Positions 28,105 to 34,666 of a DNA stretch of 64,000 bases are shown here, one piece after another; position 1 is the first letter of the stretch; every line of letters starts with the position of its first letter. The stretch is from positions 1,482,001 to 1,546,000 of the forward strand of contig NZ_CP015455.1 of NCBI RefSeq assembly GCF_001888165.1, in the 5' to 3' direction. The notes beneath the pieces were generated by a model. The model was given only the letters and a program-made list of their open reading frames with translations. It was not told where the DNA came from and did no database searches. The translations under genes and the position numbers were made by a program. This DNA comes from Syntrophotalea acetylenica (GTDB taxonomy: Bacteria > Desulfobacterota > Desulfuromonadia > Desulfuromonadales > Syntrophotaleaceae).

Positions 28105-28146
28105 ATCCCCTGGTTTTCCTGCCTGTCCCTTTGCCCGGTCTGATTG

Positions 28147-29843
28147 TTAACTAGTGTCCATCCGGAAACCCCGGTTTTTGTCAGGCGTGGCCACTCTGGC
28201 GGCAAGACAAATGCCAGATCCGCAGGGTTTCGAAATTGTTGAGTCTCATAGCACCCCCGATTTATCCCAAAAGTGCGGCATAAGGACGCACGATTCCTGT
28301 CGGGGGCGAGTTTTACAGCCTTTTTTGTCGCGTTAGCCCTGGGCCAGTTCGATGCGTGCCAGAACCAGCAGGTTGTACGAGACGACATTGCTCCAGACAT
28401 AGCGCCTGAATCCGCGCCATCCGCTCCAGGTACAGCGGGTCAGGCCAAAGCGCCGTTTCAGGGCGGAAATATTGGCCTCGATCCCGGCGCGAAAGTGCTT
28501 CAGGCGCTTGTAGACCCAATTGCTCTTGGCCATGTCGAGCACCCCAAGGCCGCGCCGCTTGGAGAAGACGGCATCCTTGACCTGATGCTCTTTGGCAAAC
28601 GACAGATTATCCCTGGAGGCAAAGCCCCCATCGGCGCTGGCCTGGCGCGGCATGGTGCCGAAACGTTGCTGATGGCGCTCCAGCATGTCGATGTATTGAT
28701 CGCTGTCGGCGGGATTGCCGCGGGCGATCACGCAGTCCAGAATCAGATTGGAGGCGCCACCGGTAAAAAAGACCTTGTGACCGTACTCGGTTTCGCGGCG
28801 CGACTTGACGATGATGTCGCTGTGGCTCTCGAAAAAGGAGATGATTTTCTCCGAGGCCGGAACCTTTTCGTCGCGAAAAACACGCCGCTCGGTCTGGTCG
28901 ATGACCTTTTCGAGAATGCGCAGGGCGCGCTCCAGCTGCTGTGCCAGAAGGTGCGCGGTGCAGCCGTCTTGGAAGCTGCCGCCCTGGTAGGCGCCCAGAA
29001 CGGGGATCGCCTCCCGGGCATAGCCGCAGACCTTGCGGGCTACCTCCACCAGGTCGCGGTAAGCGGCCACGCGGGTTTCCTGCTTGCGGGCATTGAGGAT
29101 GGTTAGGGCGCGCTTTTTGGCTACCCGGCGATGATCGGAAAATGGGTAATCCGGACGAGGCCTGAGCTGATGGCCCTCGACCATCCAACGGGTCATGATC
29201 CGAATACCGTCCCACAGCAGCGAGGAGTCGGTGGGATGATGGATGTTGGTCTCAATGGCGGTGGAGTCGATGCGCACCTTCTTGCCCGTCTCGATTCTCG
29301 TCCCGGCGGCGTAGCCGAGGATCAGGTGGTGCAAGGCCTCCCAGGTTGACTCCGTCAAGCTCTTGATACTGTCCTGGAGGATCGACTTGCGGGGATAAAC
29401 GCCCATCTCAAGGCGAGCAAAAGAGCGGAAGGCGACGGAATCTTCCAGGTAGAAGGCCAGTTCCTCATAGGTCAGCTCGCGATACTGTTTGAGAACGGCG
29501 CAGCGCAGCACCTGGTCAGCCGTCAGCCCGCAGCGCCCGGTATCCTCGCGCCGACCCTGAAGCAGATCGCGGTGAACAGCATCGAGGATATCCGGCGTGT
29601 GATCCAGAATCTGCGAAATGCAGCGCAGCTCTTTGGCGATGGCGCTGGTATGCATGAGCTCGAAGATGGACATTTGTCGATTGATTTTTCGCCTCACAAG
29701 CCCTCCTGACCGTATTGAAGTTGAATAAATTCAACGAGTTAGAGGGTTATATTGTCATGCCACGCTCAAGAATTCAAGTACAAAAACGTGTATTTTGTTC
29801 GTAATTACAACAGCTTATGACTTTCCGGATAGACACTAACTAA
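28147..29843 (-). mobile_element. insertion sequence, ISNCY-like, about 1.7 kb
   Basis: Bounded by TTAACTAGTGTCCATCCGG on the left and CCGGATAGACACTAACTAA on the right, inverted repeats matching in 19 of 22 positions, and carrying one transposase gene on the minus strand. No clean target duplication is visible just outside the ends. It lies between the macrodomain gene and bioW. The exact outer borders are uncertain by a few bases. Confidence 0.8.
28333..29697 (-). CDS. DDE transposase, ISNCY-like
   Basis: 454 residues. The N-terminal half (QMSIFELMHTS, IAKELRCISQILD, TADQVLRCAVLKQYRELTYE) is a DNA-binding region typical of this group. The catalytic triad is plausible as Asp in KVRIDSTAIETNIHHP, Asp in QASADGGFAS and Glu in GIEANISALKRRFG. 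The frame is complete with no stops, so the element may be active. Family assignment (ISNCY/IS5 group) is from the overall sequence feel, not a search. Confidence 0.88.
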   Translation of the reverse strand: MRRKINRQMSIFELMHTSAIAKELRCISQILDHTPDILDAVHRDLLQGRREDTGRCGLTADQVLRCAVLKQYRELTYEELAFYLEDSVAFRSFARLEMGVYPRKSILQDSIKSLTESTWEALHHLILGYAAGTRIETGKKVRIDSTAIETNIHHPTDSSLLWDGIRIMTRWMVEGHQLRPRPDYPFSDHRRVAKKRALTILNARKQETRVAAYRDLVEVARKVCGYAREAIPVLGAYQGGSFQDGCTAHLLAQQLERALRILEKVIDQTERRVFRDEKVPASEKIISFFESHSDIIVKSRRETEYGHKVFFTGGASNLILDCVIARGNPADSDQYIDMLERHQQRFGTMPRQASADGGFASRDNLSFAKEHQVKDAVFSKRRGLGVLDMAKSNWVYKRLKHFRAGIEANISALKRRFGLTRCTWSGWRGFRRYVWSNVVSYNLLVLARIELAQG

Positions 29844-29857
29844 GCACGCTTTGGATG

Positions 29858-29886
29858 TTGACAATCCCGTTGTTCACTGTTAATTT
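29858..29886 (+). promoter_or_regulatory. promoter of the bio operon
   Basis: TTGACA (29858-29863), 17 bp spacer, TAATTT (29881-29886). The -10 ends only 8 bp before ATG 29895, so transcription would start at or next to the bioW start codon. It begins 15 bp after the right end of the insertion sequence. Confidence 0.6.
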
Positions 29887-29894
29887 TCCTTTCC

Positions 29895-30698
29895 ATGAAA
29901 GAACCTCTTTTCAGTATTCGCATGCGTGCCGCCCGTGGAGACCGGCATATTTCCGGGGCCGAAAGACTGGCTGGCGCCGACTGTCTGGATGGCCTCGCGG
30001 CCGGCATGGTGAAACGGGCGCTCGGCCATCCCAAGGGGCTGCCTGACAGCATTTCCCTGACCATCGAGGAAATTGACCTCTCGAGGCTGATGCGTATCGG
30101 ATTGCCGGATATACGCACTGTCGGCGTCGACTCGGTGGCGCAGGGCAGAAACGCTGCACTGGCCGGACTGCTTCGCGCGGGGATTTCCGAACAGGCGGCA
30201 CGTAGTGCCATGCAGGCCTTGGCCGGGGGGGCTGCTCCGAATGGGGAAAGTATGCGAGGGGCGATGCTGGTCGACGCCCTCGACGGGCGGCGTCTTGAAT
30301 TCGACGCGGCGCGCGGCGTGCGGGTGTCGCGCATGGATCTCGAAGAACGCGCCGCTGCCGTGCTTGCCAGGGAGCTGCAAGCCATCGGATTGAACAACAC
30401 GCATGTTCAAGAGGCGTTGGTGCTGGCGGCCAAAGTGCTGCATGCCCCTGGAGTGCTGGCCGAGCTTTGCTGGTCGGATGATCCCGATTACACGGCAGGT
30501 TATGTTGCCGCGCCTTGTCTGGGCTACGTGCGTTTTCCGCTGCTCAAGCCTCGGGGTGAGGATCGTGGCGGCAGAGCTTTTTTTCTCGCCCCGGGCACCG
30601 ATGTGACCGGTTTGTACCGTTTTCTCGAAAAACAGGCGGTTCTGGTCGATCGGGTTGGCCGGATGCTGCCCGATGAAAGGTGGAGGGCATGTCCCTGA
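29895..30698 (+). CDS. bioW: 6-carboxyhexanoate-CoA ligase (pimeloyl-CoA synthetase)
   Basis: 267 residues. FSIRMRAARGDRHISGAERL, GHPKGLPDSISLTIEE and GAMLVDALDGRRLE are typical of BioW, which activates pimelate to pimeloyl-CoA with ATP and CoA. The product feeds BioF, encoded next. No Shine-Dalgarno is visible before ATG 29895 (the preceding bases are T- and C-rich), which fits a leaderless or nearly leaderless transcript from the promoter just upstream. The gene overlaps bioF by 10 bp. Confidence 0.9.
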   Translation: MKEPLFSIRMRAARGDRHISGAERLAGADCLDGLAAGMVKRALGHPKGLPDSISLTIEEIDLSRLMRIGLPDIRTVGVDSVAQGRNAALAGLLRAGISEQAARSAMQALAGGAAPNGESMRGAMLVDALDGRRLEFDAARGVRVSRMDLEERAAAVLARELQAIGLNNTHVQEALVLAAKVLHAPGVLAELCWSDDPDYTAGYVAAPCLGYVRFPLLKPRGEDRGGRAFFLAPGTDVTGLYRFLEKQAVLVDRVGRMLPDERWRACP

Positions 30699-31861
30699 AA
30701 AGCTGGCAGGATGCTCTGGCGGCGCTGGCGTCTTGCGGCATGCTGCGCCGCCTGCAGACCGTGACCGGTCCGCAACGCGCCCATGTTCACATGCAGGGGC
30801 GCGAGATGTTGCTGCTTTGTTCCAACAACTACCTTGGGCTGGCCGATCATCCGGCGCTGGTCGAGGCCCAGAGCCGGGCCGCGGCACATTATGGCACCGG
30901 CAGCGGTGGCAGCCGGCTTATTTCCGGCAGCATGGAACTTCACGAGCAGCTCGAAACCCGGCTGGCCTGTTTCAAGGGCACGCAGCGAGCCTTGTTGTTC
31001 AATTCCGGTTACGCAGCGAATACGGGCATTCTTCAGGGGTTGATGGGGCCGGAGGATATCATCTTTTCCGACCGGCTCAACCATGCGTCGATCATCGACG
31101 GTTGCCGTCTGAGCCGCGCGCGGACTCTGGTCTATCCCCATCGGGACGTGGCGGCCCTTGAGCGGCTCATGGCCGGAGAGGCTGCGGGGCGCAAGGGGCA
31201 GTGGCTGATCGTCACGGATGGTGTTTTCAGCATGGACGGCGACCTGGCGCCGCTGCCGGAACTGGTTGCCCTGAAAAACCGCTACGATTGTCTGTTGATG
31301 GTGGATGATGCGCATGGAACCGGTGTGCTGGGCGCAGGCGGCAAAGGTACCGGGGAATATTTCGGATGCCTTGCCAACATCGATCTGCATATGGGGACGA
31401 TGGGCAAGGCGCTGGGAGGCTTCGGTGCTTTTGTGGCCGGACCGGATGTTTTGATCCAAACCCTGTTGAACCGCGCCCGTTCCTTTATTTTTTCGACCAG
31501 TCTGCCACCGGCAGTGGTCGGCGCCGGGCTGGCGGCTCTGGATATCGTGCAGAGCGAGGAAGGACGATCCCTGCGCTTGCGGCTGGAACAGCTCAGAGCA
31601 CTTGTTACTCAACATCTCGGCCCGGATATCTGCACCGGTTTTGACGGCAACACGCCGATTTTGCCGATCATTACCGGCGAACCGCAGGCCACGGTGCGCG
31701 CCAGCGCCTGGTTGCAGCAGCAGGGAATCTTCCTGCAGGGCATCCGTCCGCCGACGGTACCCGAAGGCAGCTGCCGTTTGCGCATGACCCTCATGGCCAC
31801 CCATCAACCCGGCGAACTGCTGCAGGCGGCTGACCTGATCCGGAAAGCGTTGTCGGCATGA
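30689..31861 (+). CDS. bioF: 8-amino-7-oxononanoate synthase
   Basis: 390 residues, a PLP-dependent alpha-oxoamine synthase. Visible landmarks are LLLCSNNYLGLADHP, YGTGSGGSRLISG, NHASIIDG, VDDAHGTGVLG and the Lys-containing MGTMGKALGG that binds PLP. It condenses pimeloyl-thioester with alanine. AAAGG at 30676-30680 sets ATG 30689; GTG 30680 would destroy that site. It overlaps bioW at the front and bioH by 4 bp (ATGA) at the end, so the operon is translationally coupled. Confidence 0.93.
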   Translation: MSLKSWQDALAALASCGMLRRLQTVTGPQRAHVHMQGREMLLLCSNNYLGLADHPALVEAQSRAAAHYGTGSGGSRLISGSMELHEQLETRLACFKGTQRALLFNSGYAANTGILQGLMGPEDIIFSDRLNHASIIDGCRLSRARTLVYPHRDVAALERLMAGEAAGRKGQWLIVTDGVFSMDGDLAPLPELVALKNRYDCLLMVDDAHGTGVLGAGGKGTGEYFGCLANIDLHMGTMGKALGGFGAFVAGPDVLIQTLLNRARSFIFSTSLPPAVVGAGLAALDIVQSEEGRSLRLRLEQLRALVTQHLGPDICTGFDGNTPILPIITGEPQATVRASAWLQQQGIFLQGIRPPTVPEGSCRLRMTLMATHQPGELLQAADLIRKALSA

Positions 31862-32667
31862 TCATTCATAAATTCTGCCGTCTTGACGACGGACGCTCCG
31901 TCAGTTACCGAGCAGGGGGCGATGGCCCCGTGCTTGTCCTGCTGCATGGCTGGGGGATGTCTTCCCTGGTGTTTTCGCCCCTCATGCAGCGTCTGTCCTG
32001 TTGCCGTCGCATTATCGCTCCTGACCTGCGAGGGCACGGGCATTCCCATGGCGGGCCAGGCTATGCGCTGGGGGATTTCGCGGCGGATATCGAACAATGC
32101 CTGAACCTGGCGGGGGCCGAGGAAATCGCCCTGCTTGGCTGGTCCCTTGGCGGCATGGTGGCCCTCGAGATGGTCGAACGACTCGGCGAACGGCTTAAAA
32201 AACTTATACTGGTTTCGACAACGCCCTGCTTCGTGCAACGCGACGGTTGGCCGCACGGCCAGCCGGCATCTCGGGTAAATGCACTGTCCAGGCGCTTCCG
32301 TCGCGATCCCGCAGCGGCTCTGGAAGGGTTCTTCCTGCAGCAGTTCGATGGCGAGACAAAACAGGGGCCTCTCATTCAGACATGCAAGCATGAACTGTTC
32401 GATCTTGCTCCCCTGCCTCTGGCATCGGCAGGTCTGGGCGGGTTGAGCACCCTGTGTGACGCGGACCTGCGCGAGCTCTCCCCACGATGCTTGCCGACCC
32501 TGATCATGCATGGAAGATGCGATGCCATCATCCCTCCGGCTGCCGGTGAGTATCTGGCCCGCCGCTTGCCTGAGGCGCAATGGAAGCTTTTGGATGGTGT
32601 CGGACATGCTCCCTTCATCGGCAGGCTGGACTTTTGCGCGGATATCCTGGCGGATTTTTTGATATGA
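31858..32667 (+). CDS. bioH: pimeloyl-ACP methyl ester esterase BioH-like
   Basis: 269 residues of the alpha/beta hydrolase fold. The nucleophile elbow is GWSLGG, the oxyanion segment LLHGWGMSS, the Asp lies in HGRCDAIIP and the His in GVGHAPFIG. Its place between bioF and bioC and the 4 bp overlaps with both make it the BioH-type esterase that frees pimeloyl-ACP from its methyl ester. Sequence alone cannot exclude another hydrolase, but context is strong. Confidence 0.85.
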   Translation: MIIHKFCRLDDGRSVSYRAGGDGPVLVLLHGWGMSSLVFSPLMQRLSCCRRIIAPDLRGHGHSHGGPGYALGDFAADIEQCLNLAGAEEIALLGWSLGGMVALEMVERLGERLKKLILVSTTPCFVQRDGWPHGQPASRVNALSRRFRRDPAAALEGFFLQQFDGETKQGPLIQTCKHELFDLAPLPLASAGLGGLSTLCDADLRELSPRCLPTLIMHGRCDAIIPPAAGEYLARRLPEAQWKLLDGVGHAPFIGRLDFCADILADFLI

Positions 32668-33470
32668 ACGCTATCGACCGTCGTCAGGTTCAACGCCATT
32701 TTTCAGCCAGCGCCTGCAGTTATGATGATTGTGCCGATGTTCAGAAACGGGTTGCGCGCAAGGTCGCGAACCTTGTACAGGTTGAGGGGGCCGCGAAGGG
32801 ACCGATGCTGGAAGTCGGCACCGGTACAGGATATCTTGCCGAACTTATCGCGGCAAGATATCCGGGCTTGCGGCTCCTGGTGTCGGATCTCGCCCATGCC
32901 ATGACGCGCGCCGCAAGCCAGCGGTTGCCAGGGGCCTGGGCCATGGATCTCGATGCCGCGGCCTTGCCGCTGGCTACGGAAACCATGGCGTATGTCTGCA
33001 GCGCGTCGGCTTACCAGTGGGTGGAAAACCTGCCCCGGGCCTTCGGAGAATGTCATCGGGTTCTGCAAAAAGGCGGGAGTTTCATCTTTGCCCTGTTCGG
33101 AGACGGAACGCTTGACGAACTCAGGGGTGCTTACCGGGAAGCTCTGCTGTGCGAGGGGCGGGAATCCCCCGATTACCTGGTGCCGATGCCATCGAAACAT
33201 CGGGTTGATGCATCACTTGCCGCCGCCGGCTTTGAAATTTTCCGGGTTTGGGAGGAAGTCGAGAGGGAGTATCACGGTTCTCTGGCTTCGTTGCTGCGGT
33301 GCCTCAAGGGGGTAGGGGCGCATAACGCTTCCCGATGCCGTCCCCGAGGGCTGGCTTCGCGACAGGTCATGAAACGCCTCGAAGGAAATTATATCCAAAG
33401 GTTTGCCGACGGTGGGAGGCTGCCGGCTACCTATCGGGTAATTTACGGGATTGCCGGCAAGAGCGGGTAA
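32664..33470 (+). CDS. bioC: malonyl-ACP O-methyltransferase BioC
   Basis: 268 residues. RRQVQRHFSASACSYDDCADVQ is the BioC start and LEVGTGTGYLAELIA the SAM-binding motif I, with SASAYQWV and FALFGDGTL further on. It methylates malonyl-ACP to prime pimelate synthesis on the fatty acid machinery. ATG 32664 overlaps the bioH stop by 4 bp. With bioH it forms the de novo pimelate route, which coexists here with BioW. The gene ends 17 bp before convergent rlmI. Confidence 0.88.
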   Translation: MNAIDRRQVQRHFSASACSYDDCADVQKRVARKVANLVQVEGAAKGPMLEVGTGTGYLAELIAARYPGLRLLVSDLAHAMTRAASQRLPGAWAMDLDAAALPLATETMAYVCSASAYQWVENLPRAFGECHRVLQKGGSFIFALFGDGTLDELRGAYREALLCEGRESPDYLVPMPSKHRVDASLAAAGFEIFRVWEEVEREYHGSLASLLRCLKGVGAHNASRCRPRGLASRQVMKRLEGNYIQRFADGGRLPATYRVIYGIAGKSG

Positions 33471-33487
33471 AACTGGCGGAGAATGGA

Positions 33488-34666
33488 TCAGTCGCAGGCC
33501 TGCATCACGACACATTTCAAATATTCGGTCTCCGGGCAGGAGCAGAGCACCGGGTGGTCATAGGACTGCCCGCGAACTTCCAGCAGGCGCATTTCCCGTT
33601 TTGCCAGAAAAGCCGCCTGCCGCAGGGTATCGAGGAAGGTTTCCCGGTCCATGTGGTGGGAACAGGTGCAGGTAAACAGAAAACCTCCCGGTTCCAGCAA
33701 TTCCATCGCGCGCCGGTTGATGGTCAGGTAGCCCTTGATCCCTTCGCGCAAACGCTTGCGGTTTTTTATGAACGCTGGAGGATCGAGGATAATCCCGCCA
33801 AATCGCTCGTTTCCGGAATTAAATTGGCGCAGACTGTCGAAGACGTCCGATGTCACAAACCGGCAGGTGTCGTCTTTGAAATTCAATCGTGCGTTTTCTT
33901 CCGCAAGTGCCACGGCCGCCGGTGAAATGTCGATGCCGATAACCTCGGCGGCGCCAAAACGGGCGGCGTGTATGGCCCAGCTTCCCGAATAGCAGAACAG
34001 ATCGAGCATACGCTTGCCGGCGGCCCGGTCCCGCAGGGCGAGATGGTTTTCCTTCTGATCCAGGAAGTGACCGGTTTTTTGCCCCTGAAGAACATCGACT
34101 TTGAAGCGCAGACCGTTTTCAGTTATTTCGACGCGGTCGGGAAGCTGCCCGTGAAGGATTTCAACCTGGCGCGGAAGGTTCTCCAGGTCGCGCACCGCGA
34201 CATTGTTACGGGCGACGATCGCCTCGGGGTCACAGATGTCCTGCAGGGCTTGCAGGATGAAGTGTTGTCTGCAATCGATGCCCCGGGTCAGAAACTGAAC
34301 CGACAGCACCCGGTCGTAGCGATCGACCACAAGCCCCGGCAGGTGATCGCCTTCGCCGTGAACCAGGCGCACAGCGGTGGTACCGTTGTAGATTGCCTCG
34401 CGCATGGCGAAGGCGGCTTGCAGGCGGTTGCGGTAGAAGTCCACGCAATCGATACACTGCCTCTGCCGGGAAAGAATGCGCGCTGCGATCAGTGAATGGG
34501 GGTTGTAGTAACCGGTCCCGAGGAATTCGCCGCCGGCCGTCACTATCTCCACGGCCTGGCCTGGCAGCGTGTCCTGGCTCGGGGGCTGGATTTCATTGCT
34601 GAATACCCAGGGGTGGCCGCGACGGACGCGGCGCTCGTGTCCGGGGCGCAGAACGAGCTGTATCAT
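33488..34666 (-). CDS. rlmI: 23S rRNA (cytosine) methyltransferase, RlmI-like
   Basis: 392 residues: an N-terminal PUA domain (LVLRPGHERRVRRGHPWVFSNEI), a central RNA-binding part, and a Rossmann methyltransferase (LDLFCYSGSWAIHAARFGA as SAM motif). LDPPAFIKN is the amino-group/cytosine catalytic loop and CTCSHHM contains the Cys of m5C enzymes. RlmI methylates C1962 of 23S rRNA in E. coli. It shares a 4 bp overlap with the ArsR gene upstream, so the two are co-transcribed. Confidence 0.9.
   Translation of the reverse strand: MIQLVLRPGHERRVRRGHPWVFSNEIQPPSQDTLPGQAVEIVTAGGEFLGTGYYNPHSLIAARILSRQRQCIDCVDFYRNRLQAAFAMREAIYNGTTAVRLVHGEGDHLPGLVVDRYDRVLSVQFLTRGIDCRQHFILQALQDICDPEAIVARNNVAVRDLENLPRQVEILHGQLPDRVEITENGLRFKVDVLQGQKTGHFLDQKENHLALRDRAAGKRMLDLFCYSGSWAIHAARFGAAEVIGIDISPAAVALAEENARLNFKDDTCRFVTSDVFDSLRQFNSGNERFGGIILDPPAFIKNRKRLREGIKGYLTINRRAMELLEPGGFLFTCTCSHHMDRETFLDTLRQAAFLAKREMRLLEVRGQSYDHPVLCSCPETEYLKCVVMQACD

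Follow-up and report, generated by a model that had tools for sequence, protein, structure and literature searches.

The 64,000-nucleotide stretch of DNA analysed here (the window: contig NZ_CP015455.1, positions 1,482,001 to 1,546,000 of the forward strand, assembly GCF_001888165.1) comes from Syntrophotalea acetylenica, a member of the order Desulfuromonadales, and carries the biotin genes bioW, bioF, bioH, and bioC in a row on the + strand at 29895-33470. BioW activates pimelate to its coenzyme A (CoA) thioester, and BioC and BioH make pimeloyl-acyl carrier protein (pimeloyl-ACP) de novo, so the genes for two routes to a pimeloyl thioester lie in one operon. A first-pass annotation of the window had described the four genes as tightly coupled, and the coordinates of the open reading frames confirm successive overlaps of 10, 4, and 4 base pairs with the chosen starts.

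29895-30698, + strand: bioW, pimeloyl-CoA synthetase (6-carboxyhexanoate--CoA ligase), 267 amino acids
30689-31861, + strand: bioF, 390 amino acids from ATG, with an alternative GTG start at 30680
31858-32667, + strand: bioH-like, pimeloyl-ACP methyl ester esterase (alpha/beta hydrolase), 269 amino acids
32664-33470, + strand: bioC-like, malonyl-ACP O-methyltransferase, 268 amino acids from ATG, with a further in-frame ATG at 32580

The BioW protein matches PF03744 with 248.9 bits (cut-off 25) and NF002360 with 239.5 bits (cut-off 226), and its score against TIGR01204 (179.2 bits) lies 14 bits below the cut-off of 193.55. BioF reaches 456.9 bits against TIGR00858, above the cut-off of 426.45. 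When the BioC profile was run over the whole genome, the operon protein scored 149.8 bits and the next match 62.2.

The arrangement is not a peculiarity of this strain: bioWFHC is how the biotin 'early' operon is usually built in this order. We searched 121 genomes of the order, each at least 80% complete, with PF03744 and obtained matches in 79, and at 70 of these 79 BioW places the four genes follow one another in the identical order on one strand. Six of the nine remaining places run into a contig end (L083, L096, L105, L108, L122, L126), and the other three (L112-L114, family f11) hold divergent stand-alone BioW relatives. Apart from family f11, every BioW place with downstream sequence has bioH and bioC. 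A chance or strain-specific fusion, which the first-pass annotation had named as the finding that would speak against it, is ruled out by the same gene order at 70/79 places. In one genome (G019), bioH appears as a pair of overlapping fragments (L145). Unrooted trees separate the order from the rest of the sampled bacteria and archaea: the 70 BioW proteins together with the three of family f11 split from 35 outside sequences with a support of 0.947, and the 70 BioF proteins split from 35 outside sequences and E. coli with a support of 0.98.

The outside sequences belong to a second sample of 80 named loci from GTDB genomes, 45 in the order (overlapping the first set) and 35 outside it, the latter from Nitrospirae, Negativicutes, other Bacillota, and archaea. 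Within the order, 38 of the 45 loci have bioH and bioC beside bioW, and the other seven have too little downstream sequence. None of the 35 outside loci, 30 of which have at least 2.9 kilobases (kb) downstream, carries both bioC and bioH alongside. Among 29 outside genomes searched whole, BioC exceeded the cut-off in one, Pelosinus fermentans JBW45, and all other matches stayed at or below 98.1 bits; this cut-off is strict enough that BioC of the window itself (150 bits) would fail it. Outside the order, judging by gene content, BioW and BioC-BioH look like alternatives, as the first-pass annotation had stated, and the Desulfuromonadales look like the exception. In four loci of the same phylum (L251-L254, family f60), the BioW matches fall inside open frames 659-707 codons long, which may encode BioWF fusions.

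The key residues of both routes are kept. According to a published account, Tyr199, Tyr211, and Arg213 of Bacillus subtilis BioW hold the far (distal) carboxylate of pimelate (PMC9544090). All three are present in BioW of the window and occur at 70/70, 69/70, and 70/70 loci of the order, respectively, in B. subtilis numbering. The conservation of Tyr199 and Tyr211 leads us to expect a narrow specificity for pimelate. For BioH, the Ser-Asp-His triad, which we take to be S82, D207, and H235 in E. coli numbering, is kept in 70/70 loci including the window, and 30 residues of BioC are identical to E. coli at 66 or more of the 70 loci. Overall identity to the E. coli proteins is 24.7% for BioC and 28.6% for BioH. 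The ratio of nonsynonymous to synonymous substitutions (dN/dS) was below 0.45 for all four genes across 14 close locus pairs (0.09-0.38 for BioW); six of the 14 pairs reuse four or five loci, so the pairs are not independent, and in two the BioW sequence is truncated at the edge of a contig (L085, L107). A decayed BioW was considered and is thought unlikely, given the kept residues and the dN/dS values. By their kept key residues both routes look intact, and the activities of BioW, BioC, and BioH are accordingly given here as predictions from sequence.

We consider it probable that the two routes work in parallel and feed one BioF. BioC would methylate malonyl-ACP, fatty-acid synthesis would elongate it, and BioH would strip the methyl group to leave pimeloyl-ACP, thereby forming the de novo branch. 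BioW would convert free pimelate, whether imported or set free inside the cell, into pimeloyl-CoA and might thus serve in salvage or recapture. The same BioF would accept both pimeloyl-ACP and pimeloyl-CoA, and bioA, bioD, and bioB would complete biotin. The first-pass annotation had reported these last three genes as absent from the window; they are present elsewhere in the genome, on one other piece of the same genome (L048).

L048 7391-8383: bioB, overlapping bioD
L048 8370-9095: bioD, overlapping bioB
L048 11044-12402: bioA, about 150 kb before the window

About 11 tandem copies of GTGAGAG stand just before bioB (L048 7311-7388), and about 33 tandem copies of CTTACAA (L048 10800-11027) end 16 nucleotides before bioA, which is separated from bioD by about 1.9 kb that appear repeat-rich by eye. 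Within the 64-kb window, no tandem array of any kind was found.

Genomes that have lost parts of the operon bear on how the two branches might share the work. Among the 42 genomes of the order without a BioW match, bioF scored over the cut-off in seven and just under it in two. One of them (G082, 99% complete) has no PF03744 match and retains the BirA box, bioF, bioH, and bioC (L137), with bioW absent from the interval between box and bioF, as well as a bioB of 392.8 bits, where the search covered bioB and not bioA or bioD. Judging by this genome, F-H-C may be able to supply the pathway on its own. Four others (G046, G081, G047, G029) carry a different type of cluster with bioF, bioD, and bioA, and two (G013, L142; G094, L141) have bioF alone at apparently the same locus; bioB is present in G013, and none over the cut-off was found in G094. 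Because G082 lost bioW alone and, family f11 aside, no reverse loss was seen, we take BioC/BioH to be the possible principal source and BioW a supplement to it, G082 being the one clear case for this division.

The two routes could also be connected in series. Pimeloyl-ACP from BioC/BioH would then be freed as pimelate, by a thioesterase or by BioH, and BioW would re-activate it to the CoA ester that BioF needs. In B. subtilis, fatty acid synthesis reportedly assembles pimelate as a free acid. A study of that organism reports that pimeloyl-ACP is not a substrate of its BioF, and describes how organisms with BioW arrive at free pimelate as unknown (PMC11089781). The constant presence of bioH and bioC beside bioW, with the six exceptions at contig edges and family f11 set aside, would also suit a series, in which one operon would both produce and consume free pimelate. 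Against it stand G082, which keeps the box, bioF, bioH, bioC, and a bioB with no bioW match, and the absence of any known acyl-ACP thioesterase among the four genes of the operon. We regard a series as very improbable.

Another explanation is that BioW serves mainly another pathway, such as the catabolism of dicarboxylic acids, and merely sits in the biotin operon. The three divergent relatives of family f11 are the observation in its favour.

L112 7927-8703: divergent stand-alone BioW relative
L113 864-1640: divergent stand-alone BioW relative
L114 880-1659: divergent stand-alone BioW relative

The other two proteins are 40 and 38% identical to that of L113, and all three have lost Arg213 and also Tyr211. 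In L112, and by eye in L113, the gene is flanked by an oxalate-oxidoreductase-like beta gene on one side and by an ArsR-type regulator on the other. Re-use of the BioW fold is therefore possible, and the f11 proteins are possibly a re-used BioW. The ArsR-type regulator resembles one near the biotin operon of the window. At 70/79 places, in contrast, bioW is the first of four adjacent bio genes, it follows a BirA box in 68 of the 71 loci examined, and its pimelate-binding residues are kept. A main role of the operon's BioW outside biotin synthesis seems to us very improbable as well.

The BirA box was sought upstream of the first gene as TTGTNAACC-N13..15-GGTTNACAA with up to three mismatches; a fixed 14-base spacer had missed many boxes, and the scan was widened to 14-15 and then to 13-15. 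The 71 loci are the 79 minus the three divergent f11 loci, one without a usable BioW match, three with fewer than 150 bases upstream, and one with a run of N. The box precedes bioW in 68 of them, compared with 7 of 1420 single-base shuffled sequences. The three failures are the window (6 mismatches), L100 (4), and L116 (5), although in the last of these a box with a spacer of 16 bases can be seen by eye. The right half of the box contains the -35 element TTGACA. An extended -10 element (TGnTAnnnT) at 17-18 nucleotides from the -35, followed 6-10 nucleotides on by the in-frame ATG of bioW, occurs in 66/71 loci, a count made without a shuffle control.

29858-29886, + strand: predicted promoter, -35 TTGACA at 29858-29863, 17-nucleotide spacer, extended -10 TGT-TAATTT with its hexamer at 29881-29886

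The ATG of bioW in the window follows the -10 hexamer by 8 nucleotides. With transcription starting at the usual distance, almost no leader would be left, and the bioW messenger RNA is therefore predicted to be leaderless or nearly so. A generic sigma-70 promoter scan of 29600-33700 returned no site, where 1.2 were expected in shuffles; it missed this promoter because TAATTT matches TATAAT at only three of six positions, and our claim rests on the layout common to 66/71 loci. All four genes would presumably be transcribed together from this one promoter, under a BirA operator overlapping its -35 element.

In the strain analysed here, this operator is interrupted. An insertion sequence (IS), which the first-pass annotation had missed, lies just upstream of bioW, with its ends placed by comparison with other copies.

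28144-28147: TTGT, the outer part of the left BirA half-site, 1.7 kb from the rest of the box
28148-28153: target-site duplication TAACTA, left copy
28154-29836, - strand: ISNCY-family insertion sequence, NF033593 at 483.1 bits (cut-off 325)
28333-29697, - strand: transposase gene of the ISNCY element
29837-29842: target-site duplication TAACTA, right copy
29837-29864, + strand: remainder of the BirA operator, TAACT of the left half-site at 29837-29841, 14-base spacer at 29842-29855, right half-site TGTTGACAA at 29856-29864

The assignment to ISNCY is based on the family match of the transposase, the several copies in the genome, and TAACTA on both sides. The other copies are one partial and five near-full ones, the latter at G000:C1 1216778, 1220215 (with the partial match directly after it), 1367036, 2669358, and 2794464. 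Joined without the IS, the flanks read TTGTTAACT-N14-TGTTGACAA, a box with two mismatches. With the IS in place, the best upstream BirA site has six mismatches, the worst of all 71 loci, and the split site itself also counts six by hand. The right half-site, the -35, the -10, and the ATG are untouched by the insertion. A genome-wide search with a 14-base spacer and at most two mismatches located only the box before bioB; this search alone would prove little, because a backwards control pattern matched six times per strand. Since the IS split the left half-site and spared the promoter, repression of bioWFHC by biotin is probably weakened in this strain, as we infer from the arrangement of these elements.

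Several observations weigh against the parallel supply or against its control by BirA. BioH scores 147.3 bits against TIGR01738, about 60 under the cut-off of 206.95, and BioC 150.1 bits against TIGR02072, about 35 under the cut-off of 184.95, yet each is the top NCBIfam model for its protein; we name the two proteins BioH-like and BioC-like because of these scores below the curated cut-offs. The cap residues Arg 138, 142, 155, and 159 of E. coli BioH, which presumably contact ACP, correspond to A, G, G, and Q in the window, in a part of the protein where the alignment is uncertain. The pairwise distances of BioW correlate with those of BioF, BioH, and BioC at 0.64-0.66, compared with 0.77-0.83 among the latter three. 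Acceptance of both thioesters by BioF is not guaranteed, because the B. subtilis enzyme reportedly does not accept pimeloyl-ACP (PMC11089781).

Furthermore, birA, the sole ligase-family match in the genome (G000:C1, about 1876267-1877200, - strand; L234/L236), appears split between different frames: a 158-codon frame with the helix-turn-helix part, which reaches 62.2 bits against a cut-off of 70, is followed near a run of C by another frame. In five of five other genomes of the genus, birA is a single frame of 330 codons. A biotin ligase should be essential, and the frameshift is therefore likely a sequencing error in the C run. A real change would also affect repression, and control of the operon by BirA would then be moot.

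The scores of BioH and BioC under the curated cut-offs and the IS that landed upstream of the operon might be taken as signs that one route, BioC/BioH or BioW, is a decaying and inactive relic in this strain. All four reading frames of the operon are open in the window, however, and the active residues are kept. Compared with four genus-mates, the window genes show dN/dS of 0.09-0.28, with two of 16 comparisons giving no synonymous distance; since the synonymous distances are mostly near saturation, these ratios say little about the strain itself. We judge such a relic unlikely, if somewhat less so than either a series or a main role in another pathway.

Returning to the parallel supply, its central observation has a precedent. 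Rodionov et al. 2004 reported, in the part of the paper accessible to us, that Desulfuromonas has both bioC-bioH and bioW, and predicted BirA sites before bioW (-63) and before bioB (-94) (PMC545781). The core of the two-route finding was therefore already known and is not novel. As far as that part extends, the two organisms are alike in having both gene sets in one genome, a BirA site just before bioW, and another before bioB; they differ in the IS that splits the operator of the bioW operon here, and the leaderless layout and the order-wide count are added by the present analysis. No description of the leaderless layout or of the IS insertion was found in a literature search that was not aimed at them and covered few subscription papers.

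Other known systems share parts of the arrangement. The structurally solved BioW proteins (PDB 5TV5 and 5FLG groups) belong to the same family and have the same Tyr/Tyr/Arg set for pimelate recognition, whereas none of the 35 BioW loci in the sample from outside the order has a bioC-bioH pair beside bioW. The account cited above for the BioW residues gives the solved structures as those of Aquifex and B. subtilis, and notes BioWF fusions in Desulfosporosinus and Corynebacterium (PMC9544090). Such fusions resemble the present operon in the coupling of BioW and BioF, which are here separate, overlapping genes. The E. coli BioC-BioH route involves the same families by top model, with the BioH triad and the 30 BioC residues in common; in the window, by contrast, bioH lies inside the operon, and E. 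coli, used as a control, gave no BioW match.

What is new in this strain is thus a modest regulatory finding, the IS in the operator, added to a core observation already published. The IS-split operator offers a natural test of BirA control, and predicts that the operon would be less repressed by biotin than in relatives. The two-supply operon, kept across the order, could provide a clean system for asking why BioW is retained beside BioC-BioH and which thioester BioF takes.

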